Shown: in pieces, positions 13,838 to 48,790 of the stretch
Numbering within the stretch: position 1 is the stretch's first letter
Layout of the letters: every line of letters starts with the position of its first letter
Assembly (NCBI GenBank): GCA_029582155.1
Contig: CM055900.1
Location: 46,365,736 to 46,429,735 of the forward strand
Reading direction: 5' to 3'
DNA: 64,000 nt
DNA from: Panopea generosa
Taxonomy: Eukaryota; Mollusca; Bivalvia; Adapedonta; Hiatellidae
Made by a program: the position numbers and the translations under genes
The notes under the pieces: generated by a model
Databases searched by the model: none
Told to the model about the DNA's origin: nothing
The model's input: only the letters and a program-made list of their open reading frames with translations

Positions 13838-14998
13838 ATGCCACGTGGAAGATTGAGGCGGCGAGTAGCTCACAGAGAGGACCGGGAATGTAACAAGCAA
13901 AACGCTAGGCAGGCAGCCCAGCCTCAACAAAACGAGGACAACCGTCCGCAGACGAGAGGCAGGGAACGGAATGCCGACGAGGTACAACGGCAGGACGACA
14001 ACGCTGCAGGTGCGGAGAGACAAGTGGGCGCGCAAGGCCAGACGCACGAACTCGACGCTGGTGACAACAGGCTGCTCAAGGATGATGCCGGTGGGTGTAA
14101 TAACAATTTTATTGATTTTGAAAATGTTCTGGTATTTTACCTCTTAGAAATACTGTTTTAGAGAATTCAGGTGATAAATCGGGGTGTGGCGATGTGCGCG
14201 GCAATAAGTTGCCTATCTCGCCGCCAGGTCAATTTTGGACCAAACCGGTCAGTATTGACCAGTACGCGCAAACTGCGCTTTCAGTCCGTTTTGGTTTGTG
14301 ATGATTTGGCAGCACATGTCACTTCATCTCTAAAGCAACAGATTGACAAGGGTGAATATATAAATTTAGCCCTTTTACTCAAAGGGGCAGTAAAGCTGTC
14401 TAATTTTTGCAAAGGGGGCGTTTTTAAATTAACATCCGACGGTCACATTGAAACTGCTGAGAAGGAGTGCAAAGACAAAATAACAAGTATAAAACAATGG
14501 ACAAACGCGTTCATTATAAACTCTTCAATTTATCTGTTATCGCACAGTAACAGAGTCCATGAAATGCTCCACTACATGTATAATGTTAGGGAATGCACTA
14601 TGCGTCAGGGAGGCCTGGCATGGCGCATATATAACGAGCAGTTCCGCTTACGTCAGGCCATATCACCCGCATCCTGGTCGCAAATCAATAATGACCTGTG
14701 GTGAAGATGCATGCAAGTTAAGGACACGCAGAAAGTTGCCCAGTTAAGCACGCGTAGATACACGTGTTACGACTTCAATAACGGTAACTGTGTCTGGCAG
14801 AACTGCAAATTCGCCCATGTCTGTAGTACCTGTTCAGCCCCGCGCCCTGAGGTTAATTGTAATCAGCAGAGTTCGTCCGCGAATTTTCGAATTTCAAGAC
14901 CTCCTAGTAATTTTCGAGGTAGGTGGTATTGTATACCTTTCAGAGGTCAAGGGCGGGGCCAGTTTCAAAGACAGCAGCTCAAGCGAGTTTACAACTGA
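13838..14998 (+). pseudogene. gag-like ORF of the DIRS/Ngaro-like element
   Basis: It opens with ATG at 13838. Segment one is rich in Arg, Gln and Asp (about 85 codons). From about 14290 the frame encodes 'VCDDLAAHV', 'INLALLLKGAV', a helical core, 'LAWRIYNEQFRLRQA' and 'NNDLW'. This resembles the conserved nucleocapsid-like region of DIRS-type gag proteins. After an in-frame TGA at 14702-14704 it continues as 'RCMQVKD' into a cysteine cluster with 'CYDFNNGNC', 'CKFAH' and 'CSTC', a zinc knuckle. It ends in an Arg/Gln-rich tail at 14998. A TAG at 14159 may lie inside a short intron (14091-14170). The TGA at 14702 is a true nonsense change in a conserved position, so the gene is broken. Confidence 0.7.
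14091..14170 (+). other. Possible 80-nt intron in gag
   Basis: The donor is 'g|gtgggt' at 14091 and the acceptor is 'aattcag|gtg' ending at 14170. Removing it eliminates the TAG at 14159 and leaves a frame encoding 'LPISPPGQFWTKPVSIDQYA'. That frame must then shift by one base near 14295 to rejoin the conserved gag frame. Spliceosomal introns are known in DIRS-type elements. The evidence here is only the splice motifs and the open frame. Confidence 0.35.
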
Positions 14999-14999
14999 A

Positions 15000-15247
15000 G
15001 AGCCTTACAATTTGGATATTGTCAATATAGCAAAATCGCCAGTCAAGGTAGAAGCTTTAAAACGTTATTCATGCTCTTATGATAAGGATGAAGCGAACTT
15101 TTTAAGTCAGGGTTTTTCACAGGGTTTTCCCATTCAGGATTATTGGACCAAGGTTACCACGGGATTCGAAATATTTACGCTCTACAGCGTTGAATCCTGA
15201 TATAATTATGTCTCAAATAAACAAAGAATTACAGAAACGGAGGGTGG
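15000..15247 (+). pseudogene. pol stub (N-terminus ahead of RT)
   Basis: Frame 3 encodes 'SPVKVEALKRY', 'YDKDEANFLSQGFSQGFPI'. After a one-step frame change near 15175, frame 1 encodes 'LRSTALNPDIIMSQINKELQ' and 'KRRV' before entering the right terminal repeat. The 'GF..GF' and 'NP.I....I..E...+RV' pattern is typical of the start of DIRS-type pol, just before the RT. Everything downstream of this point has been lost. Confidence 0.6.
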
Positions 15248-16750: not shown

Positions 16751-16945
16751 TAAACATGCCAACCTTTATTTACCTTTTAATAGTATAGATTATGATTGTT
16801 TATTATCTCGCAATTTGTTACTGCACAAACGTTACTATATATATTCAATAAACATAGAGAATGCAGCACGTTTTTCCTTTATTTTGAGTTATATTAAATA
16901 ATGACAATTTAAAAGTATTTATTCATATTTCAGACTGTGGTTAAA

Positions 16946-17302
16946 ATGATGCACCAATGGGCGACGATTACCTATTTGCCTAAAGTATCAGCGCTACTCG
17001 TTGTATGCTGTAGTTTATGTTACGCCCCAACGAATGCGCAGTGCATTATTCGCTACGGAGTAATGACTGTTAACTTTGAGAATTGTCTGCCAGCTCGCTT
17101 ACTTACTAAAATGTGTTTCGGTTCGTGTTCTTTACAAACAGCATTGGCAGAAGGAAGCGACTGTTTAGAATGTTCTCCCGACAGAGCTGCGAATAGAACA
17201 ATAAACCTACTTTGTCCACACACAGAAGAGGGTATGGTCTTTAGAAATGTGCATTATAATGTAAGCATTCCCATGACTTGTCAGTGTAAACATTGTACGT
17301 GA
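16946..17302 (+). CDS. Secreted cystine-knot (CTCK) protein, bursicon/DAN-like
   Basis: The CDS encodes a 118-residue protein from ATG 16946 (or the next ATG at 16949) to TGA. Residues 12-31 form a hydrophobic signal peptide with likely cleavage before Gln32 ('APTNA|QC'). The mature part has ten cysteines at 33, 47, 57, 61, 73, 76, 90, 112, 114 and 117. They include the diagnostic C-x-G-x-C ('CFGSC', 57-61), 'LLCP' at 88-91 and a C-terminal C-x-C-x-x-C. This is the C-terminal cystine-knot fold shared by bursicon, DAN/gremlin-type antagonists and glycoprotein hormone subunits. The short tail 'CQCKHCT' is most bursicon-like. N-glycosylation sequons are at 83 and 105. An acceptor 'atatttcag' ends at 16933, just before the start, so an upstream 5' UTR exon is likely. 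The bursicon 'CMCC' appears as 'CLEC', so one cysteine is absent. Receptor and function are inferred only at the family level. Confidence 0.8.
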   Translation: MMHQWATITYLPKVSALLVVCCSLCYAPTNAQCIIRYGVMTVNFENCLPARLLTKMCFGSCSLQTALAEGSDCLECSPDRAANRTINLLCPHTEEGMVFRNVHYNVSIPMTCQCKHCT

Positions 17303-23769: not shown

Positions 23770-24690
23770 ATTATGTAGTCGGTATTCAGTAAACGCTTTG
23801 AAATACTGTATTAATTTTTATAAAGATTATTTACTGTTACCCAAATACGGACCAAAGTCGGTATTCAGTAAACGCTTTGAAACTCTTATTCAAACTTCAT
23901 TAATATTTTTCACTGTTACCCAAATACGGACCAAAGTCGGTATTCAGTAAACGCTTTGAAACACTGTATTTCTTTTTATAAAGATTATTTACTGTTACCC
24001 AAATACGGACCAAAGTCGGTATTCAGTAAACGTTCTGAAACACTGTATTTTTTTTTATAAAGATTATTTACTGTTACCCAAATACGGACCAAAGTCGGTA
24101 TTCAGTAAACGCTTTGAAACACTGTATTTTTTTTATAAAGATTATTTACTGGTACCAAAATACGGACCAAAGTCGGTATTCAGTAAACGCTTTGAAACAC
24201 TGTATTTATTTTTATAAAGATTATTTTCTGGTACCCAAATACGGACCAAAGTCGGTATTCAGTAAACGCTCTGAATCACTGTATTTATTTTTATAAAGAT
24301 TATTTACTGTTACCCAAATACGGACCAAAGTCGGTATTCAGTAAACGTTCTGAAACACTGTATTTATTTTTATAAAGATTATTTACTGTTACCCAAATAC
24401 GGACCAAAGTCGGTATTCAGTAAACGTTCTGAAACACTGTATTTATTTTTATAAAGATTATTTACTGTTACCCAAATACGGACCAATGTCAGTATTCAGG
24501 AAACGCTTTGAAACTCTTATTCAAACTTCATTAAGATTTTTCACTGTTACCAAAATACGGACCAAAGTCGGTATTCAGAAAACGCTCTGAAACACTGTAT
24601 TAAAGTTGATAAATATTTTTCACTGTTACCCAAATACGGACCATAGTCGGTATTCAGTAAACACTTTGAAACACTGTATTAATGTTTATG
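23770..24690 (+). repeat. 79-bp tandem array, ~12 copies
   Basis: The core 'gtcggtattcagtaaacgct' recurs at 23778, 23858, 23936, 24015, 24094, 24172, 24251, 24330, 24409, 24488, 24568 and 24646. Spacings are 78-80. The central copies are nearly identical, and two carry a variant 'ctcttattcaaacttcatta' segment. It is a satellite-like minisatellite, not a CRISPR array, because the whole unit repeats. Confidence 0.97.
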
Positions 24691-25138
24691 AATAAAAAAC
24701 ATAATTTTCTACTAGTATCATATCTGCTGTTACTATATCTGATACTGTTGCCCGAATACGTTTATAGCCATTATTCGATAAATAGTTTGAATCATTTTAT
24801 TCCCTTTTTAAGATGAACCTAGCCATTGTATGTGATAAAAATCATTTTGTCAATTAGTGGTCGAGAGTGGTACTTACAGACACCAGACACTAACCTCTTT
24901 TCCGTACTGGAAAGGCTGTACATGACAGGAAATAACCAGCTGGACACTATAGCAATAAAAGTGAAACCCACACCGAGCTAAGCAACAACTGTATATATTG
25001 TTATGTTGTTATTAGAATGGATTGTACAACGGAGACAGCTGATTTCTAAAAGGCCAGTGGCATTATTTTCAGTAACTGTTATTGCCAGTGCGATTACATA
25101 GTTCAGTCATTCATCTGAAAAATCGAAAGTTTGGTTGA
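24691..25138. other. Non-coding region
   Basis: No supported feature. Confidence 0.4.
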
Positions 25139-25310
25139 TTGAATATTTAGCATCAGTTTTATGCCATCCAGGGCTAACTGAAGATCAGTTAACCTAACCG
25201 CTGTTTCCTGGGATCCTGAAATGTTAACCAGTACTCGAGCACACCCCATCTCCGTAAGTAACTGATAACTTTCCCACTTGAATTAGCGGTGAGAGACGAA
25301 TGATAATAAG
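25139..25310. repeat. Dispersed ~180-bp repeat, copy 2
   Basis: Second copy of the repeat at 22912-23095, same orientation, about 2.2 kb away. Confidence 0.7.
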
Positions 25311-26811
25311 ACACAATGTCGTATATCAATCATCATGGAGTCTTTTGACGGGCGGAGATTCTACAAATTATATAACGGTTTTGTCCCGAATGACAAAGAC
25401 ATTTATCTGTTCTATATCTAATTCCGTTGATCCTCAAGGTCATCCTCATCCCACCATTTTCAATATAGTAAAAATCCCAAATCTATACCGATTCCCTGAA
25501 ATTCTCATTCTTTACAAGTATCATCCCATTGATCTTGGGGACAATTAACGACTTCTGGACTTGAACTGTGTATGCTGTCATTTATTTTTATGACAGCTAC
25601 CACTTACCCTCTGCTAATCGTTTTACTTCTTAAAGCGACTTCGCATATACCTACTTCTTATTTTTGTTCGTTTAATCTATGCAAAGTTGCCATCACCCCA
25701 CCTACCGTGATGCCCGGCATTGAGCGTGAGCAGTATCGATAGATAGGTAGATAGATAGATTGACTTTATATTTGAATAATCTTAGTAAAGTAGTAATATA
25801 TAATTATAGAATAGTATATGGAGAGAAGTCTAAAATTAAGGAAGTTAATTGTGGGCATTAAACTGATTGAACAAATTATAAATATATTCAAACTTAATCA
25901 ATGAAATTAAATCCTTCTTATTTCATTTTAAAGTAGAAACTTGTCGTACGTTTACTTTAATGAAACTCATGAAAATATTTGTAAATATACTCTATTTCTA
26001 AAAATTATATATTTACATGATCCAAATATAAATATTGGTATATCCAAATATATATTTTGTAAAGCGGTATATATTTTTTTCGCCCATTCGTAGTCATATA
26101 TGGCTAAAAGTGTAACACATATACTATTTCCATCCTTTTTATTATTTTATAAAACATATAATTATTAAATTGATAAAGTTATAATTTTAAGGATTTTTAA
26201 TCACATTTTCAAAACTGAACTAGGGTTATATTAGATTGTAAATAAATTCTTAAATATGAATTTCCAAATAGTAATACCTGGATATTGATATTTCCATGTG
26301 ATTAAACGAACGTGTATATGCGTGTAAATAAAGATCGATTTCAACCATTCAACCTAAATGAATTGAAGTTGCACTTCGTAATAAGGGGAGTAAATCGTCT
26401 TATTTTTTTATTGTTCACTATATTGTGTTCCCTCCCTTTGGATTATGTGACGCGCTTGAAAAAAAATCAATGTAATGAACACGACATTTAATTACACATT
26501 CGAGAATATAATCATTTCTAACACTATTGTTTAGAATATATATTATTTTACATTTTCGCGTCATCATCAGCAAAACTTTATATATTAAGTAAGTTCATGA
26601 TAGCTATCTACTTAAGTACTACTATCTACTTACATAACAGTATCATATTCTAGGTCAATTGTATAGTGTGATACCCAACTAACTCACAACTTACTGTCAC
26701 CGTACAAAAGTTCACTAAATTTAGACAATGGTGTGAGACGGTTGTATGTTCTCTTATCAAATAGTTTGTTCGATGGTTTTATGGTTTCGTGATTATGACC
26801 GACATTAACTT
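25311..26811. other. AT-rich non-coding region
   Basis: No coding signal. A short GATA-type run lies near 25735-25760. Confidence 0.4.
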
Positions 26812-26838
26812 CCCCCCCCCCCCCCCCCCCCCCCCCCC
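26812..26838 (+). repeat. Poly-C tract (27 C)
   Basis: An uninterrupted cytosine run. Confidence 0.97.
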
Positions 26839-27591
26839 AGCATGCGGAGTTCATGGTACATATACATTCATTTCCCAGTTAACACACAGCAATGTTTTAA
26901 GATGACAGAACTTTGAGAACAAATATCAGACTACTATAACTGTATGAAAATTCATGACATATTCATGTCTGTAACAAGATGCTCTTGCGTAACATGAAAG
27001 TGTTACACGAGCAATTACACCACATATGAGCCTCATATGTGTTATATGAAACACGTCATATGATAATCATACAAAGAAGTCATATATAATTTTTGTAGAC
27101 ATGTTTCGTAAATCATATACATGGGAATCGTTCGGTTATGAACGGATTCTCCTATTAGAGTCGAAAGACAGGACTAGCACGGAACTCGTTTTACATGAAT
27201 TTTACATGATGCTTTTTATATGAGATCATATCAAACAAATACTATATGGTGCTCAAATGGTAACTATATATACAATCCTCATAGGAGAAACATAGGTCGC
27301 TCAATTTCCTATTTATATCAGTCCTATAATAAGTTAAGTGATTTGACATATCGTAGCAAGTGTTCCTAAAATTATAGTAGGATTAAACACATTTAAATGA
27401 ATCTGAAACTATATATATATATACTTATTACATACTATATTTATGTTTTTATTTTTAAGTTCGAGGAAACAGTCCCGTTGTCTGTTTACGTTTTGAACGA
27501 ACACTCCTATCGCACCATATATCCCATTTACTGGCACGCACACACGTTTAGACCTTTACACCTAATACCCATAATTTTAAAAGAACAACTT

Positions 27592-27593
<2 letters not shown>

Positions 27594-27644
<51 letters not shown>

Positions 27645-27717
27645 CACGCGCACGCACGCACGCATGCAAGTACTTATGCACGCACACAAACACACGTTCT
27701 CTCTCTCTCTCTCTCTC

Positions 27718-27783
<66 letters not shown>

Positions 27784-27839: not shown

Positions 27840-28434
27840 AAATGGCTACTGGTTGACAGTTCACTGTGGAGACAGAGTACTTCACAGTGGACAGACTTTG
27901 GATGCGTTTCTACGGAGTCCACGTATTGTAACAATAATAAACACATTGAAAGCGCGGAAAACCATGCAACAATATCAACACGCTGTATTATATCCACCGG
28001 ATGGGAGCAGTACTGACTTAAGTAAATGGGATGTATCGCTATTGTGTACGATTATCAAGAACACGTGTTTAGTGAGTAAGTCAGCCAAAACAAATATTGA
28101 AAAACTAAGACAAGAAAGGAATCAAATGTTATACATCTATCAACTTGGCTGATTATACTGCCAAAGAACAAACTGCTTGCATCTGCATAATGAATATTTT
28201 CCGTCAGTGTAACGATGCAGCATATGAAAGGGAAGTTCTAGATACAATTGATAAGATAAAGACACAAGTCTTGGAAATACAACTCACCATTGATATGTTT
28301 CAACAAGCAGTTAAAAGAAACAACTAACTACAAGCACTTAATGAACAAATGAATACAGTAATTGGAAAAGTTGAATTTATTCAGGAGAACGTCGATTTTT
28401 TTGTTAGGGAATTACAAGATTAGAGCCAATAAAG
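27840..28434 (+). pseudogene. Exon 1: DZIP3-like HEPN domain and coiled coil
   Basis: The acceptor 'atttttaag' ends at 27839. Frame 1 encodes 'LDAFLRSPRIVTIINTLKAR', then 'AVLYPPDGSSTDLSKWDVSL' and 'LCTIIKNTC', the core helices of DZIP3-like HEPN domains. The HEPN R-N-x4-H site reads 'ERNQMLYI', so the usual histidine is missing. A +1 shift at 28143-28152 moves to frame 2 ('ADYTAKEQTACICIMNIFRQ'). A coiled coil then runs through a TAA at 28325 to 'IGKVEFIQENVDFFVRELQD'. A further shift near 28421 reaches frame 3 and the donor at 28435. HEPN proteins are commonly RNases or RNA-binding, and the lost histidine argues against catalysis. An ATG at 27842 in frame 2 could be a remnant of the true start. 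Confidence 0.75.
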
Positions 28435-29540
28435 GTGACCCAAAATCAAAGACAAACAAATCTTCAAACGAAACACAGTACTATAGCGTTCCTACTTCTC
28501 CTACACAAAATTCCTCGGAAGTGCAATACCAACAAACAGGAGTAGATATAGTATATAGTCGAACGCCATTTTACGAACACATGGCGTTTTATAATGAAAA
28601 AAGTATATACCTGTTTTATATCACAGTATCACGCTTATATACCGTTCTTACTATTTCATTGAATTTTGACGTTAACTGTTCCAACAGGAAAGTTTTTAAA
28701 CGTTTATAAATAGTATAATTAGAAAATAACAACTCTGTTTTCTAAATATTCGGGCTTTCTCAAATTATTTGTAACTGCTACAAATTTTAAGTAGAATGTT
28801 CAAAAATGAGTAACATATTGACTAAATTTCCTGTTGGTAAATGACATCGCATCATTTCCCGCACTAAAGATGTCATGTCACAATTGAACTGAACACATTA
28901 AATTTTAGTTTGAGAGTAACTTATGATAACGGACAAGAGCATGAAAACAAAGCTGTTCTTTTCAAATTATACTATCGTGACTTCCATTTGGGTGATATCA
29001 TGAGTATAGTTTATGAATAGATCTACATTTAATATCCATGATGTGACCAAGTAATGTACATGTTAAGAACGTAATATAATCAGATGGTCTACATGTAATG
29101 TTCAAAATGATTTGCATGTTTGTAAGTGTTTGCATCTGATCCAGGCACGTTTTGTTCATGGCGTAATCACGTAATGTCCCTTGTGTTGTACGGAACGCAA
29201 ATAACTTGCATTAACCTTAATAAAATCACGATACGATAAAGGTCTTCACTGGTTGAGCATAATGTTAACATACCACGAAGCCGACATGTATTGATGTTGT
29301 TCGTATGTGATGTTAACACCTGTTAATAAGACACATATAAGGACTGTATTTAAATGAAGACCTGTCGCAAACAAAGCGTATTTATTTCTATAAATGATTT
29401 ACAATGCTATTTCAGTTAAAAGTGTCCGTTTAATGACTTGACTTTTATTTGGGGACCAAACTTTTGTGATTGAATGGAGTTACATGAGAATTAAGCATAC
29501 TTTTATAATGTAAACGCATCTGTTTTGACTCTGATTTCAG
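28435..29540 (+). other. Intron 1 of the HEPN-nSTAND relic
   Basis: The 1,106-nt intron runs from 'gtgacc' to 'ctgatttcag'. It contains no coding signal except a Ser/Thr/Gln-rich continuation of frame 3 just past the donor (to about 28560), which could be retained linker sequence. Confidence 0.55.
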
Positions 29541-29585
29541 GATATGCTTCGAGTTTGTTTCGTGAGCAAGCAGGAATTAAAACAC
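29541..29585 (+). pseudogene. Exon 2: 45-nt micro-exon
   Basis: It is flanked by a strong acceptor (ctgatttcag) and a strong donor (gtaagt). In the only phase that links both neighbours it reads 'YASSLFREQAGIKT', with split codons on both sides (phase 1 to phase 1). It joins the coiled coil to 'QLRKLLEQESRFV' of the NTPase exon. Confidence 0.6.
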
Positions 29586-30613
29586 GTAAGTTTCATTAAG
29601 AAATGAATTTTTAACGTTTATGAGACTTGCATATAACATGTTCAAAGTAAGTACATTCAAAACAGGTTCATGTAAATATTGCTCATGGCATGAAAGTTCA
29701 TATCTCATGAATAAGCAACAAAAAGGTTCACTAATTATATTTGTATCTTTAGTGCATTCGATTAACACACCATGTCCTTTTTCACATTTATCTAGCACCG
29801 ATGTATTTATATAAAGTATATGTTACATCCATAAGTTAAATGACGTCAGAAATTGTTAATAAATATGACAGTTTTGAAGTTATGACTAAATTCAAATCTC
29901 GAACAAAGTTGATTGTATCTAACTTTATTATGTCCGGAGCTAAAATGTCTGTTCTTCAGTATGCGTTCATTGGAAAAAATGAACGTCAACACTTGGACAA
30001 CGATGAAGAAGTTATGTCCCGAATGTAAATATTGACACATATAAAAGGCAGGACGTTACGACAACGTTTGATGGCAAATTGTGTGATTAGTGTAATATTT
30101 CCTAAGCAGGTTATGCTTGTAACAACAGGTATTGGAAATAATATGGAAATATAATATTGATACGTTTGTTGAGCAAATAATAATATGCACCAGTTAGTGT
30201 CAAAAAACATATGAAGATACTTTTTAAGCAAGAGGGTAATTAAGCATTTTCTTTCATACTTGCCAATAACATGAATGCTTAGTGTTTAACGGCCTATTGG
30301 CCATTAGTCAATAATGACTGTGAGACAAGTACATTCTGTAAGCACATACCCGTAGAAACATATATTTAAGTTTTAAAAATTACTTGCCAAATTGAAAATA
30401 ATTAACTACACAGAATCAATTGTAAACACAATTACAAAGATTAGATATATTTAAACATTAGTTGTTTATTTACTCCAATACATTTTTGTTTTTCATTAAG
30501 AAAATTAGACACGGTCTTGATAATCTTTGTAATTTCGGTATTGTTTTTATCATGGTGTATCTTCTGTAATAGCCATTATTATCATGGAATTGTATTTGTT
30601 CATGTATTTGTAG
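29586..30613 (+). other. Intron 2 of the HEPN-nSTAND relic
   Basis: The 1,028-nt intron runs from 'gtaagt' to 'tatttgtag'. No coding signal was recognised. Short open frames on both strands near 29.6-30.0 kb are unremarkable. Confidence 0.55.
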
Positions 30614-31931
30614 GGCAATTGAGGAAACTTCTGGAACAGGAGTCAAGATTCGTCCACACCAAACCGTTTCAACAGATTGAAGAAATGTTGAAGTCTGCTG
30701 TGAACGTTATTATTAGTGGTAGACCGGGTGAGGGTAAAACAAGTGCCGCATATGAATTAATGAGAACGTATGGACAGTGTAGTAAATGTAATGAAATTGA
30801 CTCACATGATGATATTATATTTCTGGAACCAAATATGTTTGATTTTGTTTTTATAGACGACTTGTTTGGCCAGCATGATGTTGACGAGAGTAAGGTAAAA
30901 GTATGGGTTCCAGTCTTAGAAAAGCTCCAAAACTTGCTAAGAGCAAATGCTTTCAAGTTGATAATTTCGTCCAGAGAAATAGTTATTAATGAATGTAAAG
31001 ATCACATTTTATACAATTTGATATGTTTTCGAACAAGGTTTTGATCTCGTCTGAAAATCTGAGTGATGAAGAAAAGATGATTATTTTACAGGCCGCATTA
31101 AAAAGCAAAGCTCGTTCTCTTACTGATGATGAAATGCTTACTTGTATAGGGAATTGTAGATCTGACATAGGTTTCCCCTATCTGTGCTTTCTTTTCGCGT
31201 CAAATGAAGAGTTCTTCCAAGAAAAACAACACTTCTTCCAACGGAGTCTTGTAGTAACCGATAACTTGTTACTACGGCTGCAGCCTTTTAAGTTACTGGC
31301 TTTATGGTATATGTGGATAAAGGGGTATGCCTGCCGTAAAGATGAGCTGTTCAACGTTTCTCCTGAAAATATGGAACTTCTCAAAGACATAAGGCAACAA
31401 GTTGAAAATCGATCGACTGACAGTATAAGCCATTTATTAAATGATATCAAAAAGAAATTGGACATAATGAAAAATATATGTATAGTTGAATCGAAAGGGG
31501 AATACAAGTTTTTGCATAATTCTATATACCAGTCGATAGGATTGCATTTTGCACATCATGGTTATGCTCCAACTGTTATAATGTCAAGTACGCTAGATTT
31601 CTTCATGGAATGTTTTCGGTTAAAAAGCAATGATGTAAATAGTGTTATCTTTCTAACGGAAAAGTTGTACCCAACTTTTGTACAGAGAATAATCATAGAA
31701 ATAATGGAAAAGGGCTATTATAGAGAAATTGTTCAACACCCTTGTATCACAGAACCTGTGTTGAATGTTCTAAAAAGAACACTGTCGACAAGAAAAATAC
31801 TGGATACATTTTTATGTACAGGAGTGGAAACAAATATGCGTTGTCCAGAAAATATAACCTTTTTGGAAGGAATACTTGAAACAGCGATAAAGGAATCATA
31901 CAACTTTTTGAAAAAAGTAATAAAACCTTAA
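30614..31931 (+). pseudogene. Exon 3, part 1: nSTAND3-type P-loop NTPase
   Basis: It starts 'QLRKLLEQESRFVHTKPFQQ', the typical lead-in to nSTAND3 domains. Walker A is 'GRPGEGKTS' at 30718-30744. Walker B is 'FDFVFIDDLFG' at about 30838-30870. A sensor-like 'KLIISSREI' lies at about 30955-30981. A single-base frame change near 31022 moves from frame 1 to frame 3 ('ENLSDEEKMIILQAALK'). A winged-helix-like part follows ('LQPFKLLALWYMWIKGY'), then 'KGEYKFLHNSIYQSIGLHFA'. These match the order expected of nSTAND3. All three NTPase motifs are preserved. The frame ends at TAA 31929. Confidence 0.8.
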
Positions 31932-34900
31932 TGTATTCATACAAAGAAAACGACTTGCAAAAGATGTTTCATGTTATACACGGCATATAGAGGCGCATGC
32001 AAAGGTGGAAATACTTTAGCTCTTTTAAAACTGAATTTTGTCGAAATTGACAATAAGCTACTTGTGAGTGCAGTTGAAAGTAGAAGTAAAGTTATTGTCG
32101 ACAGAATAGTGAAACGTTTAGGTTCTGTCTGTCCATCTGAAACGCAAAAAAGGTTACTTAAGTCTATTGAGTTGGGGTCTTTTGAGATATTTTTGTATAT
32201 TCGGAATACATTGGGGGAGTGATAAAAATCGACTGTCTCCACGAAGCTGTAAAAAAACAACATATAGAACTTTTAGACCACATTGCACTCGAACTAACCA
32301 ACAGTGGACATGTTTATACTGAGATACAACAAATACGTCTGTTTGATGATGTTGACAATTTTAATGTCTACCAAATTTTGTCCAAATACAATATTTTACC
32401 AACAGAGGAAAACATAGCAACATACATAAGTCAAAATAGACATCAATTACTTTAAAGATATAGTTTTTGATTTTGAGGTCAAACAAGCAGACTTATCAAA
32501 AGTAATAAAAGCAACGCCATCTTCAAATGACTATTTTATTTTTAGTTGTGTTCTTAGCCCAAGAGAATATATAACCGATGCGATTTTAAAAGATGACTTG
32601 GAACGTGTGAAACGTGTCATTGAATGTCATAACTCTATTGGTATTTGTTATCCATCAAAACCGTGGGTGTCAAGAGCTATATCATATTTTTCTGCAACAC
32701 CCTTCAGTGTTTCCATTCTATATTGCCATGCTGCACAAGGGTTTTATTCCCAATGATAATATTTTATATTTCGCGGTTCAGACAAACAGTCTTGATGTTG
32801 TACAGGAAACAATTTCCAAAATGAAAATCAACGGGAAATTTAATTGCAAAACTAAGACAATAAAGAGGGCTTTGCTAGTGTCTGTCCATTCACAAGACAT
32901 ATACAACTATTTAATAGCAGAAGGTATAAAGCCGTCTTATTACCACGTGTTGTTCGTGGCAGAATGTGGAAAAGATGATGCTGACGCAGTTGCCAAAAAT
33001 GTATTTTCAATTCTAAAAGCAAGAGACATAAAACCCCACAATTAGGACATCATGGGCATGGCTTTGTTGGCATTATTAGGGCAACTAAATCTGTACCATT
33101 GCATACGTACAGAAGGCGGTATACAGTTACCACCATATGTATTAAGTGCAGCTATAAAAAGAGACTGTATAGACGACCTGCGATTTGTCATTAATGAAAT
33201 GAAATTATAATCCGTTTGGCCCCCTGTCGAGACAGACATAATGAACGCACTAGGAAGTTGTTTTTATATACCAGACTTCTTTCAGGAACTGATGACGTCA
33301 TATGATATACAGCATGTAACCGTGTTTTCTATTCTCGCGGCTGTCAGACAGAAAAACTTAGAAATCCTAAAACAATCAATTGGAATACTTAAAAAGAATA
33401 ATAGCTTGGACGTAAATGACGTTATCGTTTAGCTTGCCGTTTTAGAAGCAACTGGTAATAATGAAGTTCACACTTTTCTTGAAAGAGAGGGCATATGTCA
33501 TATGGGAATTTTTTAAAAAAGTGTGAAATAAAAAAATGCACAGTTTATATGTCATGTTATGTTAATGTTGCAATCAAACGGTAAAGTTGATGAATTTGTC
33601 ATAGATCCATGTTCAGTGAGACTAGCATTTGAGACACCCAACATCCTTGAAATGATTTTGAAATCTCCTGATTTGTGTACATCAAAACTACTTTTGATTG
33701 CAACCGAAAATCTTCAACCAGATGTGGTTAAAATGATAATGTGCTGTTTAAAAGAGAGAAATATATTCAAACCGGATGATGAAAATTTAATCCAAGCTGT
33801 CGTTGCTTCAGTAAACTATACAGACATGTTAAAGTATCTTCTTGAAGAAGGAGTATCACCGTCCATGGAAAGGATTCATGGCTTTATTGAAAACGGAACA
33901 AAGGAAAATGTGATAGAGGCTATTCGATGTTTGTTTGAGTATGAATTATTGGACTTTTTAAGTCCTCATGTTGACAGTGTTCTTGAAACACTGCTAGCTA
34001 ATGGATATTTAGATTTATGCGAACAAATGATGGTTTATTATAATTTACACCATCGTTCCGCTTGCTGGAAAAAGTTGTTGAATTCGGGGAACTGCGAAGT
34101 GTTCAATTTGTTTTAGATGAATTATCATTTGAAATTTTGAGTGAGAACAGGGATGCATTTGGGGATTTAATGGAAAAGTCCTTTATACATTTCCCAATAT
34201 ACCAACTGCTTTCTAAACGTGGTATGAAACCCAATTCAAGATGCATTCTTAAAGCAGTGGAACTTAACTATAAAGAAACTGTTCTTGAAGTTGTGAACGA
34301 TTTTCTGTCAGAACACAAATGGTCTTGCAACAATTTGAACTTGCAACTTGCTGTTGCAAAGTCAAAAGCTGACCCTGCTATTTAAGACATTTTAAGAGAA
34401 CCAGTCAAAGAGGCACTTTAAAGTCTAATTTCGACTACATTTCAAAAATGTGATAGCCGAGAATTACAACATGTTCTCGATACCAATGATATTTTCTGTG
34501 GGGAGATTATTTCAGAAGTTCTTTGTGATGTTTGCGTAGTTGGAAGTAGTGTTCCTGGGGATCTGGTGGATATTTAGCTGAATCACTTAGATTGTAAATC
34601 GTGTGAATTTTCAAATGGAAAAGTATAACGTGCAGTGTTTCGCAAAGATCTACATCAGCTAACCCGCGTTATATATTATTTTAAACAAAACAACGCCTGG
34701 AACCCCAACATTAGGACATCGATAAGAGCGCTAGAAGAATCATTTTACTTGAATCAGGAAATAACAAGCATTTGCCTTATGAGTAATGCCGTTATTCCAA
34801 ATGCATTTTGTTTATTCTATGCAATGCAACATAAAATGTCGAACATAGTAACATAAATACTACATACCTGGGCGGTGGGAGAATATGAATCATATTCATA

Positions 34901-35183
34901 TTTCAAAAGTAAAGATATTTGCAATGACATATTCTTGGATCGTGCTTTGTCGTTATGCTGCAAACAGTCAGACGTTACAACATTCAAGGTCATGCTAGAA
35001 TGTGGAATACGGCCGAACACTATGCTTTTGTACGAAACTGTAATATCCAATGACAAAAACTCGAAGGTATTGGCGACGTTAATGTTAGACAGCTTAGATA
35101 AAAGAAACGCACTAAGGAAGGACGATTTTTGGATATGTGCCGCTTTAAGATATTACGAAACCGGTGAAATTCTACCTACATAG
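31932..35183 (+). pseudogene. Exon 3, part 2: helical-repeat tail, heavily broken
   Basis: About 1,080 codons of degenerate helix-turn-helix repeats continue the NTPase exon. Recurrent patterns include 'ML.KGFIPNDNILYFAV', 'YLLEEGVSPS', 'LLSKRGMKPNSRCILKAVEL' and 'MLECGIRPNTMLLYETVI'. That is, a Gly-x-x-Pro turn followed by an Ala-containing helix every 33-40 residues, ankyrin-like but divergent. Frame order is 3 (to TGA 32220), 2 (32219-32455), 3 (about 32436-32690), 1 (about 32680-34090) and 3 (about 34062-35183). Extra in-frame stops lie at 33043, 33208, 33430, 33514, 33529, 34383, 34419, 34575, 34626 and 34854. The final TAG at 35181 is probably the original end. The piece at 32436-32690 has no ATG and is easily missed. 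Confidence 0.75.
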
Positions 35184-35672
35184 TAAACTATTAACGAGCA
35201 TGTCAAATCATAATTATGTGTTTAAGGAATAAAAAAAACAAATGATTCGATATCAGTTGTAAGAGAGAAGCAAAATTTAGTGGGTTTTTTTTGTCTCTCT
35301 GGCGAAAGTGAATGATTAACCAGATGGTTGATTGTATAACGTTAAGAATCTACCCGCGTCGTACATGTATCGTAACTAAGGTAATATTTTGTTCGGATTA
35401 CTTTTGTTTACACCGTCTATTTATAAAGTGACGAAGGGAGAAGAGCGAGGTTGGATGTATCCGTAAACCGGTTTAAGATCACCAGTGACGTGTAAGTTCT
35501 GATCGTTGCAAGGCAATTATTCCTGCTGTCGCACCTGTATTGCCAATATTGTTGTGCCGTTATATGTTTTCGATATTTTCAAAAAAAAAAAACACGTGGT
35601 CATTGAATGCAATTAAATATATAAAAAAAATAATGCTTCAGTTAGAGGTAAGAAAATCATTTTATGATACAG
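35184..35672. other. Non-coding 3' flank
   Basis: No recognised feature. A poly-A run lies at 35580. Confidence 0.35.
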
Positions 35673-35735
35673 ACTTGAAAAATGTATTTCTCACTATGTC
35701 CATTTTTCACATCAAACCTCGACAAAAACTAGTTT
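35673..35735 (+). repeat. Segment shared with the OTU-fragment region at 59.7 kb
   Basis: The sequence 'gacttgaaaaatgtatttct' plus 'cactatgtccatttttca' and 'aaacctcgacaaa' matches 59729-59788 with a small gap and few changes. It is the leader of the 'KPRQ' reading that precedes the OTU-like motif there, but the OTU core is absent here. Confidence 0.6.
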
Positions 35736-38086
35736 GTTTACGAATGTCAGTTCCAAATGTGAAAACTGAGGCAAATATAGGTTAAGATAATAAGTTATAA
35801 ACTTTTACTCTCAAGTCAGAAATTTGTGAAAAAATTAGTTTGAAATCATCACAGGACATGTTCGATGTAGAATGAAAATAAGTAAATAGTTGAAAAGGTT
35901 TGTTTTGGGAAGTGGACAAGAAAAGGTGGAAATCTAGATGCATCAATAAAGTTAAATATATACATTATTTTTATTTATTTTAAACTTTATTAAAGCATCT
36001 GTAAAGTGTTGTTATCTTGTCAAGTATATGGCCATTATTTCTGTTAGGACCCTCAGATTGTATAAGTCAAAATTACATTGACTGTTTATAGTAAATCGAT
36101 TTCCTCTTCATAACTCTGGAACGGATTAGTCGTAGGGATATTAACCGTTGCAATTTGCGTTGTCTTGTAAATCAAAATAAATCACCTCTATTGATTTGCA
36201 GGTAAAATCGGCAGGTCAACGGTTTAAGGTCACCTACTGATATCTCGAAAACAGTAAAACTAGGTCCTACGGTGATTTTGGCTTACACCTAAATGACAAA
36301 GTTACCTTGCACGCTTTCATGTGTTTTACAAATATATATCTTTTTCATCTTTATTTGTCTATTATTATTTTGAAACTGGAGTCGGTGTTGTTTTATGATT
36401 TTAATTAAATATATTATTGATAAAATACAAGGTCAGGAACATGGAAACACAATTTTCTTAATAAGAAATAGCATAATATTATTGGTATATTCTTTAATAA
36501 AATATCCGAAGTGATTACCATAATTAAAAATGAATATTAACTCATATTCCATCTGGCAAAGTGTTTTCAAATTATTAATTATGAAAAAAAGCATGAGTTG
36601 AAACTTCGAATGTATGCAAAATTTATATATGCAAAGTATTTTGTAAGGTGTTATCATTATTTTTATCTCTGTATACTAGTATTGTATTTCAATCATTTAA
36701 ATGTTTTCCTGCTGTTAACAGGTTCTATGGTTGGAAATGTAACCATGTCTTCTTCATATTAAGTATGTGACTTGATTTCAGTAAGTCTTTATCACAGGTT
36801 TCATAATTTTCCAAATTTGAATTCTTAACAGTCACAGTTACTCTAGATCTGAAAATAGGAGGATTATATAACAAACAGGATATGTCTCAAATAATACGGG
36901 GTTTATTTTTCTTATGATGAACAAATAACTTTATTTGATGGTGACGAAAATACAGCTTATGTGTACTTAATCAATTTTCAGTAAGTGACGACTTTCATTA
37001 TGTTGAAGCCCGTGTGGTTCCGGCTAAGAATAGAATCACTGTCGATGTCTGCAGAGGGGTAGGAATCCTTCGAATGGGTGTCATGTTCATTTTATCATTT
37101 TTTGTCATATTCACTATTTTGGTTAAATTATAAACCCCTGTATGGTTCCAGGGAGCCATATGAGTGATGGCAAGAATAGGATCATTGTGGATCATGCATG
37201 TCGTAGAAAGCAACATATTGGGTAATACGATATAATTTGCTGAAACTCTGCAGTTCTGCAGGTATCAAGGTTCTAGTTTCATTCTGCATATTCATTTGTT
37301 GGTGTATTTTTTTTAAATCTGTATGTTATTTTGTTTTTTTTTGTACATGTAGAGTAAACCTGGAATCTTCCTTTCTGTTGGCTTCAAATAACCTATAATG
37401 TGTTGGTGCGCCGTAAAACCCTACTCATTCATTCATAATGTTGATTTTTTAATTAGAGCTAGCCTTTCCTTCACTGTAATTATTTATTAAGGGATGAGGG
37501 TGAAATATAATTTGATAAAAAACGACCTGGTGGCTACCAAAGGGGCTTGAAATGTACAGTGTGTTATAAGGGAATATGAAATATGTCTCTAAAACTTCTT
37601 TAATCCCATTTATAATCTCAATATATTATATGTATTATGAATAAACAAATATTAAATAAGAAGAGTTAAACCTTTATATGCTGATATATTTTGTAAATGA
37701 TGTTATCAAAATGCGGAATCTGAGTACGAATACCTGGCGTCAGCATCATTTTACTTAAATACTTAAAAACTTAACTAAGTTTTGACTTATTATTTATCTA
37801 TTTTATAATTAATATCAATGCAACTATATTCACTTTTACTGGAACCCGTCTAAAATCATGATCAACTGACTGCTTGTCTTAGATTTAGTTTTTTAAGTTT
37901 TCAACTATTTGAGTTTTTAAGTTTATTCTGGAGAAGCAAGAGTCTGATTGTTCAGTTGAAAAATATCCAAATTTATTGCTTGAAGACTGTTGTTTGCCAT
38001 TTTAAACACTCATTTACTCTTGAATAATATCTGGATATCATTCAAGAAAAAACAACATTGCTTTAGTTAGATTAAGATTATATTTT
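35736..38086. other. Non-coding region
   Basis: AT-rich. Two diverged copies of a short segment ('tgtggttcc...agaatagaatcactg' and 'tatggttcc...agaataggatcattg') lie at about 37010-37060 and 37140-37200. No coding signal is seen. Confidence 0.4.
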
Positions 38087-38300
38087 AACCAGGTTTTTCA
38101 AAGTTGAAAACCTGGTTATTAGATTGGCGAAGTCGGCGGGCGGGCGGATGGGCGGCGTCAAGTTTTTCGTTTCCGTTCAATAACTAGAGTATTTTTCATT
38201 GGAACTAAACCAAACTTACACAAAGTGTGTACCTCTAAAAATCTAGGCCAAGTTTGATAACCAGCCAATATGGACCATTTTCTTCAGAGTTATGGCCCTT
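38087..38300 (+). repeat. Bivalve-type dispersed repeat with terminal hairpin
   Basis: It begins with an 11-bp inverted repeat ('aaccaggtttt ... aaaacctggtt', 38087-38117). A G-rich 'gtcggcgggcgggcggatgg' and 'gagttatggccctt' follow. I recognise this as a common multicopy element of bivalve genomes. The family name is not known to me. Confidence 0.6.
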
Positions 38301-40659
<2,359 letters not shown>

Positions 40660-42145
40660 TCTTATCGCCCTGCGTCCGACGTCATCCGTCGTCCATGATC
40701 AGTCCGTGAATGTTTGTTGTGTGCATTCTACAACCTGCATTATTCATTGCCCTTTTACCAGACTTACACATTAGTTATATAACCATAATATCTCGGACAA
40801 GTTCTCGAACTTGCCAAATCGGATAATTAATGTCTGAGTTATGGCCCTTGAAACATAAAACATTCCACTGTTTGACCTTGCTTGAGCTCAAGGTCATCTA
40901 TTCTGATCGCCTTGTGTCAGTCGTCACCCGTCGTCCATAGTCTGTCCGTGTATTTCTGTTTTGTGCACTCTAGCACCTACATTTTGCATTGCCTCTTTAC
41001 CAGACTTACGCATTAGTTATATAACCATAATATCTCGGACAAGTTTTCGAAATGGCCAAATCATATAATTATTGTCTGAGCTGTGGCCCCTGAAAAGTAA
41101 AACATTTTACTGTTTGACCTTGCGTGAGCTCAAGGTGAGCTATATTTAATTAATTATGTAACCAATGTATATCGGGCAAGTTCTTGAACTGGCCAAATCG
41201 GATAATTAACGTCTGAGTTATGGCTCTTAAAACATAAAATATTTCACTTTTTTACTTTGCGTGAGATTAAAGTGAGCTATTCTGATCGTCATGTGTCCGT
41301 CGTCATGTGTCGTCCATGGTCCGTCCGTGAATGTTTGTTGTGTGAACTCTATCACCTGCATTTATCATTGTGTCTTTACCAAACTTACCATATAACCATA
41401 ATAACTCGGACAAGTTCTTCAACTGGCCAAATCGGATAATTAATGTCTCGGTTATGGCTCCTGAAACATAAAACGTTCCACTTGCGCGGGCTCAAGGTAA
41501 GCTATTCTGGTCGCCATCCGTCGTCCATGGTCTGTCCGTGATTTTTTGTGGTGTGCACATTAGTACCTGCATTTTTCAGTCGATTCTCTCCAAATTTATA
41601 CATTAATTATATAATCATAATATCTCGACAAATTTGTTGAACTGGCTAAATTGGATACTTAAAATCAAAGTTGACCTTGTGTGCAATCTAATACCTGCCT
41701 TTTTCATTTGATCTTCTGTAAACTTACACAATAGATATATATTTTGGACAAGCCTCTATACTGGCCAAATCGGATAATTACTGTCGGAGTTATAGCCCTT
41801 GAAACATAAAAATACACTATTTCACTTAGTGTGCACTCTAGCACCTGCATTTTTAATTTGATTCTCACCAAACTTCAACAGTAGTTATTATTAATATAGT
41901 TATTATATTAACTGTAATATCTCAGAAAAGTTCTTGAACTGGTTAAATTGGATACTTAAATTCGGAGTTACTGACCTTGAAACATAAAAATGCTTTATTT
42001 GACGTTGTATGCACTCTAGAACACGCATTTTTCGTTTGATACGTCTAAACTTACATATTAGTTATCTAAATAATATTATCTCTAAGTTTTTAAATTCGGA
42101 GTTGAAACATAAAAATATTCCACTACTGACCCCGTGTGCATTCAA
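40660..42145 (+). repeat. Diverged ~240-bp tandem repeat family
   Basis: Repeated blocks contain 'cgtcgtccatggtctgtccg', 'gtgtgcactctagcacctgc', 'ccagacttacacattag', 'atatctcggacaagttctcg', 'aactggccaaatcggataat' and 'gagttatggcccttgaaaca'. Some end with 'tgaccttgcttgagctcaag'. At least six blocks can be followed, and similarity falls towards the right end. The array runs into the LINE relic at about 42.15 kb. Confidence 0.8.
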
Positions 42146-42149
42146 GCAT

Positions 42150-44400
42150 TCCAAAATTGCAATAAAATATATAGCTAACAGAATGAAAAAAGTATTACAG
42201 GACATTATCAATAACAGTCAGACAGGATTTTTAAAAGGACGTTACATTGGTTAATATATTAGGACATTTTTGAATGCGTTTACGACTTGAATAACGACAA
42301 TAGACCGGGACTGATATTCTTTGCTGATTTTGAAAAAGCGTTCGACAGTGTTGACCATAGTTTTATTTTTAAAACATTACACTATTTTAAGTTTGGTAAC
42401 GAATTTATTGATTGGATAAAATTATTTTATAATGACGTACAAAGTTGTGTGTCAAATTATGGTTATGCCTCAGATTTCTTTAATATAAATAGAGGAGTTA
42501 GGCAAGAATGTCCACCGTCGCCATATTTGTTTATATTAGCTATTGAAATTTTATATAAATCTGTAAATAACGACAACACAATTGAAGGCGTAAAGGTAAG
42601 CAAACAAATCATAAAATATACTGCTTTTGCAGACAATGCCAATTTTTTATTAAATGGAAATCAATCTATATTTGAATCTTTAATATCATTTATTGATAGA
42701 TTCAACTCCATTTCCGGTTTAAAGATATGTATTATTCTCCGTGTAGGCTCTTTAAAGAAAACAATAGAAACGTTTTAAAAACCAATGTTTGGACTAATGA
42801 AAAAGCAACAACATTCGGAATTTTTTTTCACAAACTATAAAAATAAAGATTTAAACTACATCCAAAAATAGAACAATTTCAAAACTGCCTTAATAACTGG
42901 AAATAAATATATATTGTCTCTTTTAGGTAAAATCACAGTAATAAAAACATTTTCATTACCAAAACTTATTTTCCCACTAACTGTGCTTAAGTCACCTAAC
43001 ATAGACACTATAAACCAAATAAAAAATAAAATCGGAGGGAAAGCCAGAAAAAAATAAAGCGTAAAACTATTATACTAAATATTGAAAACGGCGGTATGAA
43101 AATGATATATATAGAACTTTTTTAAATTTAATAAAAGCAAGTTGGTTAAACGACTAACAGATGTAAATAATAATGGCGAATAGAAGTATATATACAGGTC
43201 TTCATTGGAAAAATATGGTGGAAATTTCGTCTTTGAGAGTAATTTTAATTTCGAAGAAAGTTATTCTTTGTTTAGCAAAAATCCGTTTTTTTATGTAACA
43301 TAATAGAATCATAGTCAAAAATTAATTTTAACTTTAATATTGAAGATAGATATCTAGTAAAACAGTACATAGGGAACAATTATTTCATTAAAAATAATGG
43401 CTGTTTACTATTTTACAAATCATGGATATAATTAAGAATTAAAACATTAAATGATATATATAATTCTAGACACAAGACATTTTATACTTTTGAAAGATTA
43501 AAACAATTATACAATATAAATAATTTAGAATTTCTAAACTATTACACAATAATTCGAAGCAAAACAAAAAGATGGAAACAAATTATTAAAACAGAATGTG
43601 CTAGAAATTGGAAAAAATACCTTTAATATTCTCCAAATAAAATGTAATATAATATCCAAATTAAATGAATTAAAACTGACAATATTACAAAACCTCATCT
43701 TCATAGGAAGAAATATTTTACAACCTCAACTGGAAAATTATCAGTTGACGAATGTCTATCTTTCAAAAGTACCATAGATACAAAACTAAGATCATTTCAA
43801 TACAAATACATTATGAGAATTTTACCTATTAACCAGTTTTTATATAAATGTAAAATAGTTAATTCAAGTCTATGTGAGTTTTGCGATAGACATACGGAAA
43901 CTATAACAGATTTGTTTTGGGAATGTCATTTTGTAAGAGCCTTTTGGACTGAAATTCATAATTTTTGTATTACAAACAATCAAACTTTAAACAAAATATA
44001 TCTTTCGGGTTACATAATTCATCAAGAATTTACTTACTTAACTGTATAATTTTACTTGCTAAATATTTTATATTTAAAAGCAAATATACGAAAACAATTC
44101 CCAGTAGTGCAGCATTCATACCTTACTTACAAAAAAACAAAGCAAATAGAAAGACTTATTGCAATAAACAAAAACAAACTCAGGTCACATGAAATTAAAT
44201 GGGGAATATGTAAACTAAATTACGAAAATATTCTCATCTTCTGTCCTTTTTTTACTTTCTTTAACTCGTCTTTACTACTTTATCTCTTTATATTCACACT
44301 AAAAATGTTACTTATAAGACAATATATTACTGATTTAATATATTGAGTTAGCATATTATATGTTATGTTTCAATGTATTGCTAGTATGTGTATATAACAT
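42150..44400 (+). pseudogene. Tx1/L1-like LINE relic with RT and C-terminal zinc-like domain
   Basis: It begins within RT ('IKYIANRMKKVLQDIINNSQ', 'TGFLKGRYIG'). It continues at 42287-42778 with 'FADFEKAFDSVDHSFIFKTL', 'YGYASDFFNINRGVRQECPP', 'SPYLFILAIEILYKS' and 'YTAFADNANFLL'. The catalytic FADD box reads FADN, a likely inactivating change. The thumb and connection regions at 42.8-43.8 kb are shredded. At 43813-44049 lies the C-terminal Cys/His segment ('CKIVNSSLCEFCDRHTETIT', 'DLFWECHFVRAFW') typical of L1/Tx1 ORF2. An AT-rich 3' end follows. The endonuclease is missing, so it is a 5'-truncated dead copy. Confidence 0.88.
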
Positions 44401-47377: not shown

Positions 47378-47412
47378 TGGGGTTCAACGCCATTCTAAAC
47401 ACTTTTCTGGTT
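47378..47412. repeat. SINE-tail remnant adjoining the minisatellite
   Basis: The segment 'ggggttcaacgccattctaa' plus 'acacttttctggttatatgtgg' matches the SINE tails at 20.38 and 22.54 kb ('ggggtttaacatcatagtta', 'ggtttaacgccattttaaac'). It runs directly into the 23-bp array. Confidence 0.7.
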
Positions 47413-48790
47413 ATATGTGGAATATCCAATTGGTTATATGTGTAATATCAAATTGGTTATATGTGGAATATTCAATTGGTTATATATGTAATATTCAGTT
47501 GGTAATATGTGAAATATCCAATTAGTTATACATGGAATATTCAATTGGTTATATGTGGAATATTCAATTGGTTATATGTGGAATATTCAATTGGTTATAT
47601 GTGTAATATCCAGTTGGTAATATGTGGAATATCCATTTAGCTATATATCGAATATCCAATTGGTAATATGTGGAAAAACCAATCGGTTATATGTGGAATA
47701 TCGAATTGGTTATTTGTGGAATATCCGATTAGTTCTATGTGTAATATTCAGTTGGTTATATGTGGAATATCCAATTGGTTATATGTGGAATATTCAGTTG
47801 GTTGTATGTGAAATATTCTGTATGATATATGTGGAATATCCAGTTGGTTATATGGGGAATATTCAGTTGGTAATATGTGGAATAATCATTTGGTTATTTG
47901 TAGGATATCCAATTGGTTATATTTGTAATATTCAGTTGGTTATATGTGGAATATTCAATTGATTATATTTGTAATATTCAGATGGTTATATGTGGAATAT
48001 CCAGTCTGATATATGTGGAATATCCAGTTGGTTATATGTGGAATATCCAGTTGGTTATTTGTGGAATATCCAGTGGAATATCTAGTGGAATATCCAGTTG
48101 GTTATTTGTGGAATATCTAGTTGGTTATATTTGGAATATCTAGTTGGTTATATATGGAATATTCAGTTGGTTATATGTGGAATATCCAGTTGGTTATATG
48201 TGGAATATATAGTTGGTTATATGTGGAATATCCAGTTGGTTATATCTGGAATATCTAGTTGGTTATATATGGACTATTTAGTTTGTTATACGTGGAATAT
48301 CCAGTTGGTTTTTATGTGGAATATATAGTTGGTTTTATGTGGAATATCCAATGGAATATCCAGTGGAATATTCAGTTGGTTATATGTGGAATATCCAGTT
48401 GGTTATATGTGGAATATCCAGGTCAATATCCAATTGGTTATATGTGGAATATCCAGTTGGTAATATGTGGAACATCCAGTGGAATATCCAGTGGAATATC
48501 CAGTTGGTTATATGTGGAATATCCAGTTTATTATATGTGGAATATCCAGTTGAATATCCAGTGGAATATCCAGTGTGGAATATCCAGTGGATTATCCGGT
48601 GGAATATCCAATTGGTTATATGTGGATTATCCAGTTGGTTATATGTGGAATATCCAGTGGAATATCCAGTGGAATATCCAGTTGGTTATATGTGGAATAT
48701 CCAGTGGAATATCCAGTGGAACATCCAGTGGAATATCCAGTTGGTTATATTAGGAATATCAAGTTGGTTATATGTGGAATATCATGTTGT
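47405..48790 (+). repeat. 23-bp minisatellite (WNIQ/VEYP array)
   Basis: The unit is 'cagttggttatatgtggaat' plus 'atc' (23 bp). It is repeated dozens of times and interspersed with a 12-bp short form 'cagtggaatatc'. Because 23 is not a multiple of 3, three units give a 69-bp super-period. All three frames read a 23-residue cycle with segments like 'WNIQLVICGISSWLYVEYPV'. The long open frames here (for example 48259-48753) are explained by the repeat and are not proposed as genes. Confidence 0.95.

Follow-up and report, generated by a model that had tools for sequence, protein, structure and literature searches.

Bivalves are not known to have antibodies, yet they carry large families of intracellular sensors. 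Of the closest described systems, the DZIP3-type HEPN domain appears in the table of a HEPN survey as fused to ankyrin repeats and to NACHT and as expanded in oyster (PMC3710099), and the portion of a pearl oyster study devoted to these proteins counts more than 50 NACHT proteins with an N-terminal DZIP3-type HEPN domain, the Rx4-6H motif being kept in 194 of 202 DZIP3-type HEPN proteins (PMC9646362). Related bivalve expansions built from TRADD-N, HEPN and STAND domains figure in a section of a TRADD-N study (PMC8195603), and the account of domain order given for Avs5 has an effector on one side of the nSTAND3 domain (PF20720) and a helical-repeat sensor on the other (PMC12931631). Here, we describe a gene at 27842-35183 on the plus strand of a 64,000-nucleotide stretch of the Panopea generosa genome (C7:46365736-46429735; hereafter the window), which is very probably a decayed pseudogene, duplicated at the DNA level, of a STAND receptor in which HEPN_DZIP3 was the effector, nSTAND3 the ATPase switch and a run of ankyrin-like repeats the sensor. 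Its kind is known, that of DZIP3-type HEPN joined to NACHT or ankyrin and expanded in oyster, and this member of it is dead; added interest comes from how many copies are broken, from lesions passed on to duplicates and from exchange at the end of the sensor. Our literature search found no description of a bivalve HEPN-nSTAND3-ankyrin gene, which does not prove that none has been published.

Anatomy of a three-exon gene and its relatives

The genome searched comprised 1.474 Gb in 39 contigs, of which C7 and C3 are named below. A DNA search with the whole of exon 3 returned eight candidates, all scored, and these are the same eight loci that supply 13 of the 25 rows of a protein search with 30999-31928, the other 12 rows coming from more distant loci. 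The seven further copies share 80-96% DNA identity with the window copy; six form a cluster on C7 (60.2-61.6 Mb, all on the minus strand, about 14 Mb from the window copy) and one lies on C3. Six copies, including those of the window, L035, L036, L037 and M61316, are of what we call A-type, and L034 and the C3 copy are of B-type. L034 is the least damaged: its HEPN exon is open over 297 codons, and two further open frames span 1037 and 556 codons. The window copy is a single gene of three exons (a HEPN_DZIP3 exon, a micro-exon and a 4.6-kb nSTAND3-repeat exon), with its coding start at ATG 27842, the end of exon 1 just before a GT at 28603 and its final stop at 35183. Its features, and the positions of the other copies, are as follows.

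27595..27783, plus strand: CT microsatellite at which the duplicated unit, and with it homology to the other copies, begins on the 5' side
27842..28602, plus strand: exon 1 (HEPN and coiled-coil linker), broken by 2 in-frame stops and deletions of 70, 11 and 8 nt (alignment to the L034 exon 1 frame)
~27892..28107, plus strand: HEPN_DZIP3 (PF18738) core (Pfam profile and genome-wide profile search)
28117..28129, plus strand: site of the Rx4H RNase motif, RNQM retained and C-H removed by an 11-bp deletion (comparison of 8 copies)
28130..28418, plus strand: coiled-coil linker, frame interrupted (frame reading; long helix in the L034 model)
29541..29585, plus strand: micro-exon, 45 nt, 15 codons, phase 1, AG and GTAAGT borders intact (comparison of copies)
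30614..35183, plus strand: exon 3, encoding nSTAND3, winged helix and helical repeats and broken by 11 in-frame stops and 5 frameshifts (alignment to the two L034 open frames)
30649..31005, plus strand: nSTAND3 NTPase (PF20720) (Pfam profile)
30718..30744, plus strand: Walker A, GRPGEGKTS (translation; G36, G41 and K42 near-invariant in 13 aligned sequences)
30850..30870, plus strand: Walker B, FIDDLFG (translation; D82, D83 and G86 near-invariant in the same 13)
31509..31517, plus strand: FxH motif, closing the winged-helix-like part (among the same 13, F299 is invariant and H301 near-invariant)
31930..35180, plus strand: degenerate ankyrin-like helical repeats, the sensor (Ank_2 below cut-off; ankyrin matches of relatives; L034 model)
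32448..32455, plus strand: +1 frameshift of the A-type copies (multiple alignment)
33600..35450, plus strand: exchange zone, where the A/B gene-body difference fades (divergence, max-chi-square, trees)
35184..41202, plus strand: 3' flank shared with the C3 copy (DNA comparison)
C7, minus strand: copies at ~60.24 (L035), 60.41 (M60415), 60.66 (L036), 60.98 (L037), 61.31 (M61316) and 61.58 Mb (L034) (exon 3 DNA search)
C3, 22.26 Mb: one copy (exon 3 DNA search)

An earlier note made from the letters of the window alone had proposed a HEPN core, a coiled coil, an in-phase micro-exon, Walker A and B motifs, a winged-helix-like part and ankyrin-like repeats, in that order on one strand, and the order holds: HEPN, coiled-coil linker, micro-exon, nSTAND3, winged-helix-like part and helical repeats follow one another along the plus strand. 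Both named Pfam families score above their curated cut-offs. HEPN_DZIP3 matches the first open piece of the window copy over profile positions 2-69 of 144 (E 2.4e-7, 31.1 bits against a cut-off of 27), is recovered there by the genome-wide profile search at 29.3 bits and reaches 42.1 bits in L034. The nSTAND3 profile matches the piece from 30613 (E 3.2e-21, 76.1 bits against 27.2), and both Walker motifs lie inside the match. An alignment of 13 paralogous sequences, which leaves out the window copy and takes in all 12 distant open frames, retains Walker A, Walker B, an arginine, an FP pair and FxH, and the modelled NTPase and winged-helix part of L034 resembles STAND proteins in a fold comparison, in keeping with the winged-helix-like part proposed. 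Support for the coiled coil is indirect, in that residues 153-223 form a single long helix in the AlphaFold model of L034 exon 1 (mean predicted local distance difference test (pLDDT) score 58). The repeats do run as helical hairpins to 35180, and residues 455-813 of the L034 model align to AnkB repeats in a partial fold match; their ankyrin character is weak by sequence, Ank_2 scoring 22.1 bits (E 2.3e-4) in the window piece 33532-34113 and 26.5 bits in L034 against a cut-off of 27.3.

The RNQMCH form of the RNase motif is present in six of eight copies. No RNQMCH was found in M61316 (C7, 61.31 Mb), and in the window copy the 11-bp deletion has removed the predicted RNase histidine, leaving the Rx4-6H motif of HEPN_DZIP3 incomplete.

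Exon 1, with the same start word, occurs in all eight copies, and in all eight it stands together with the micro-exon and exon 3. Since seven further copies at 80-96% identity exist in the genome, chance is excluded. We did weigh whether the locus holds two adjacent genes, HEPN_DZIP3 belonging to one and nSTAND3-ankyrin to another that follows 2 kb later. The joining of the exons is read from DNA; exon 1 of L034 reads about 14 codons past its donor to a stop, such that a HEPN-only product is possible; and 8 of 27 distant nSTAND3 loci, some of them with long open frames, have no HEPN match upstream. Two genes nevertheless seem highly unlikely. The micro-exon is in phase, as had been proposed; its ends suit the exons on either side in phase 1, and this phase is kept in every copy, by a 45-nt form in six of six A-type copies and by a 36-nt counterpart with a similar peptide in both B-type copies. 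The evidence for phase-1 ends comes from L034 and L036, in which exon 1 extends 847 and 850 nt to the donor; exon 1 of the window copy, at 761 nt, is out of phase because of its deletions.

The distant relatives point the same way. A genome search with the nSTAND3 profile placed all 22 scored candidates (of 173) above the cut-off, a total of at least 22, and these loci together with the 12 distant protein-search loci, minus overlaps and the subfamily's own row, make up the 27. At 19 of them a HEPN_DZIP3 match lies within 25 kb upstream on the same strand (11 within 10 kb, 16 within 20 kb), where about 0.03 would be expected by chance; within the same distance, and with all 126 genome HEPN matches considered, none of the 27 has a match downstream and none has one on the opposite strand. 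The 126 matches are themselves a lower bound, for they include only four of the eight subfamily loci, all of which have exon 1. Among the seven of 12 distant open frames covered by the Pfam scan, nSTAND3 is above its cut-off in six (L023, L025, L026, L028, L029 and L030; L021 is below) and an ankyrin family in five (L021, L023, L028, L029 and L030; L026 is below and L025 has no ankyrin match). We retain a single gene joining the three exons.

Lesions, duplication and selective constraint

Read in the L034 frame, the window copy has 13 in-frame stops (27854, 28325, 31929, 33043, 33208, 33430, 33514, 33529, 34383, 34419, 34575, 34626 and 34854) and eight frame-breaking indels of 70, 11, 8, 2, 1, 1, 1 and 1 nt; an additional 1+2 nt indel pair in exon 1, common to L036, preserves the frame. 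Its reading frame ends after four codons. The gene is as dead as had been claimed: frame-destroying lesions lie here, and open paralogues of the same architecture lie elsewhere. That several of the frameshifts are of 1 nt, and that L034 is one indel short of an open frame, could suggest a live gene marred by assembly or sequencing errors. This is extremely improbable: substitutions made the 13 stops, three deletions take out 70, 11 and 8 nt, and the lesions, some private and some shared, fit a coherent history of the copies.

In the parts compared, no stop of the window copy is common to any other copy. Elsewhere, one stop is common to L035, L037 and the 61.31 copy, another to L035 and L037, and the 60.66 and 60.41 copies have three stops in common as well as the same 1.5-kb deletion. 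The multiple alignment places the +1 shift near 32451 in all five A-type copies that span it and in neither B-type copy. The shared stops and the shared shift imply that already broken copies were themselves duplicated. Stops number three in L036 and five in L037 and, from partial comparison only, six in L035, four in the 61.31 copy, three in the 60.41 copy and four in the C3 copy. Seven of the eight copies are clearly broken and the eighth, L034, is nearly whole. L034 has no stop and one private 1-nt frameshift near window-equivalent 33576, absent from the C3 copy and from the A-type copies that span the site, where the 61.31 copy has a different gap of 4 nt; the frameshift may be genuine or may stem from the assembly.

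Both introns fall within 28620-30590, where the window copy shows 95.8-96.4% identity with L035-L037 and only 54% with L034, from which it follows that the A-type copies arose by duplication at the DNA level. Upstream of the CT microsatellite, 24700-27590 contains only a dispersed repeat matched elsewhere in the genome. Retroposition by a mobile element has in its favour a long interspersed nuclear element (LINE)-type reverse transcriptase 7 kb downstream; we give it virtually no credence, as both introns are kept at the identity just given and about 6 kb of 3' flank is common to the C3 copy, which indicates segmental duplication of DNA and provides a relative that speaks directly against retroposition.

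The LINE-type remains lie at 42263-42775 and 43669-44046 on the plus strand, with RVT_1 (2.6e-15) and zf-RVT (2.1e-9) matches. L035 breaks off inside the repeats after window-equivalent 32347 and continues into satellite-like sequence.

The ratio of nonsynonymous to synonymous substitution rates (dN/dS) was compared between four A-type copies (window, L036, L037 and 61.31) and the B-type copies (L034 and C3), with pairs that were pooled and are not independent. Between the lineages, the NTPase and winged-helix part gives 0.19, followed by 0.38, 0.42 and 0.60 along the repeats; within A-type, the same four parts give 0.69, 0.45, 0.55 and 1.02. The switch domain thus appears to have been strongly constrained between lineages and much less so over the time in which the copies within each lineage have diverged (dS 0.03-0.07), and the rise from 0.19 to 0.69 suggests a later relaxation of that constraint. 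The B-type pair gives 0.58, 0.79, 0.46 and 0.84, and exon 1 gives 0.98-1.91 over six within-A pairs, both with wide intervals. Together with the eight copies and their shared and private lesions, these values bear out the birth-and-death turnover proposed in the earlier note.

A possible but doubtful variant is that the A-type copies were, at birth, truncated receptors consisting of HEPN, nSTAND3, winged helix and first repeats, which ended at the +1 shift and broke only later. The presence of the shift in every A-type copy spanning it would fit, as would the open exon 1 of L036, which runs to its donor, and the lower within-A values in the NTPase and first repeats than in the last repeats. 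Yet the values on either side of the shift (0.45 before, 0.55 after) are not clearly different, the pairs are not independent, and the C-terminal value is confounded by exchange.

Several observations, besides those already given for two genes and for assembly errors, count against a simple reading as a decayed full-length receptor. Not one of the close copies is fully open in the assembly, even the best (L034) having its frameshift. Repeats of the eight-copy subfamily remain below the Pfam ankyrin cut-off. Within-A dN/dS below 1 in exon 3 leaves room for a functional period, perhaps as a truncated receptor, and the values of the B-type pair do not prove maintenance of L034.

Exchange at the sensor end and other features of the window

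The difference between A- and B-type bodies fades along exon 3, from 19-20% at 30600-32700 to about 15% at 32700-33750 and about 7% at 33750-34950; beyond 34950 it is 3-7%, not above the within-lineage level there. Max-chi-square analysis placed breakpoints at 33611-33631 in two triplets and at 34898-35116 in two others, the observed value being reached in 0 of 2000 permutations in each, and found no breakpoint in a fifth triplet drawn entirely from A-type (1620 of 2000 permutations). In trees, the branch separating A from B has a length of 0.167 for 30619-33600, 0.048 for 33750-34900 and 0.039 for 34300-34914, and the tree of 34950-35790, with weak supports (57 and 85), has no A|B split. The frameshift of L034 lies some 35-55 nt from one inferred breakpoint.

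Flanks were compared for the window, C3, L034, 60.66 and 61.31 copies. The 3' flank of the window copy is 94-97% identical to that of the C3 copy from 36300 to 41202, with short gaps; L034 and the 60.66 and 61.31 copies have a different flank in common, which gives way abruptly at 36345 to a satellite array, past which L034 resumes a diverged (87%) stretch of the C3-type flank. All four combinations of body and flank therefore occur: A with C3-type (window), B with C3-type (C3), B with cluster-type (L034) and A with cluster-type (60.66 and 61.31). Two bodies and two flanks in four combinations require that exchange took place, once or more, across or shortly past the C-terminal third. The copies are mosaics by exchange of the 3' third, be it through crossover or conversion and in either direction.

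Pseudogene reservoirs serve some antigen-receptor and surface-antigen genes. By comparison, the dead copies might be a sequence reservoir, with ectopic exchange moving the C-terminal third of the sensor and the 3' flank between them and the nearly whole gene; we regard this as rather unlikely. If it were true, pseudogenes would take part in diversifying or homogenising the sensor.

Dispersed repeats at 37006-37437, 38100-38352 and 25131-25361 recur at about 88-93% identity on many contigs, and the unit of the 38100 repeat builds satellite arrays beside the copies of the C7 cluster. Elsewhere in the window, a 129-amino-acid open piece at 16913-17299 (plus strand) matches the DAN cystine-knot domain at 22.9 bits against a cut-off of 22 and is perhaps an exon of a secreted protein, and a 269-amino-acid open piece at 56557-57363 (minus strand), with a sub-threshold DUF4651 match (E 0.014), resembles the final exon of an unnamed gene. 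Two open pieces that follow one another at 14162-15197 (plus strand; 180 and 150 amino acids) lie where GC content is locally higher (41%) and have no Pfam match at E 0.1. Tandem arrays lie at 47408-48783 (23 bp unit), 53138-54830 (67/133 bp), 23777-24689 (79 bp) and 61210-62215 (168 bp); a 182-codon open piece overlies the start of the 53138 array.

Relation to known sensor systems

The gene model and the fold match the canonical NLR order of effector, ATPase with winged helix, and repeat sensor. By profile the gene is not a canonical NLR, since NACHT scores 12.1 bits in the window against a cut-off of 26.7 and NB-ARC is absent from the window's Pfam matches at E 1; by analogy, it would only work like one. 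We hold it an even call that intact relatives work as NLR and Avs proteins do. Their repeats would bind an invader or damage signal, ATP binding would then drive oligomerisation, and the clustered HEPN domains would cut RNA through the Rx4H motif. The window copy is incapable of such a mechanism because its frame stops after four codons and the RNase motif is lost. What the locus offers is an internally controlled case of family turnover, in which broken copies were duplicated, copies spread to distant sites, constraint on the switch domain appears relaxed and the sensor end was exchanged.

Four described systems bear comparison. The best Foldseek match of the NTPase-plus-repeat part is SAMD9 (E 5.5e-6), at 12% sequence identity and a TM-score of about 0.2 over this, the only part compared. 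The bivalve TRADD-N/HEPN/STAND expansions, in the section that describes them, use the same domain vocabulary (PMC8195603); unlike in them, none of the pieces scanned with Pfam here matched a TRADD-N, DED or immunoglobulin domain. The bivalve DZIP3/hRUL138-like HEPN-NACHT proteins share an N-terminal DZIP3-type HEPN domain with Rx4-6H, a STAND-type NTPase, C-terminal repeats and lineage-specific expansion in the relevant portions of both accounts (PMC9646362, PMC3710099), whereas here the NTPase is nSTAND3 rather than NACHT, the repeats are ankyrin-like rather than LRR, TPR or WD40, and the window copy is dead. With PADLOC, a 143-amino-acid piece matched PDC-S73 (4.7e-11) and Avs4 (0.0077); the NCBIfam Avs4 score was 14.7 bits against 1500, a whole-protein cut-off that a query piece of this length cannot reach. 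Unlike the Avs proteins, the gene has a HEPN rather than a SIR2 effector, an ankyrin-like rather than a TPR-, Sel1- or PPR-like sensor, and an animal host. It resembles Avs5 and other Avs in its order of effector, nSTAND3 ATPase and helical-repeat sensor, as laid out for Avs5 in the account of its domain order (PMC12931631), and in its fold matches, and as this kind of switch is the one described there for Avs5, the class bears on the sharing of parts between bacterial and animal sensors.

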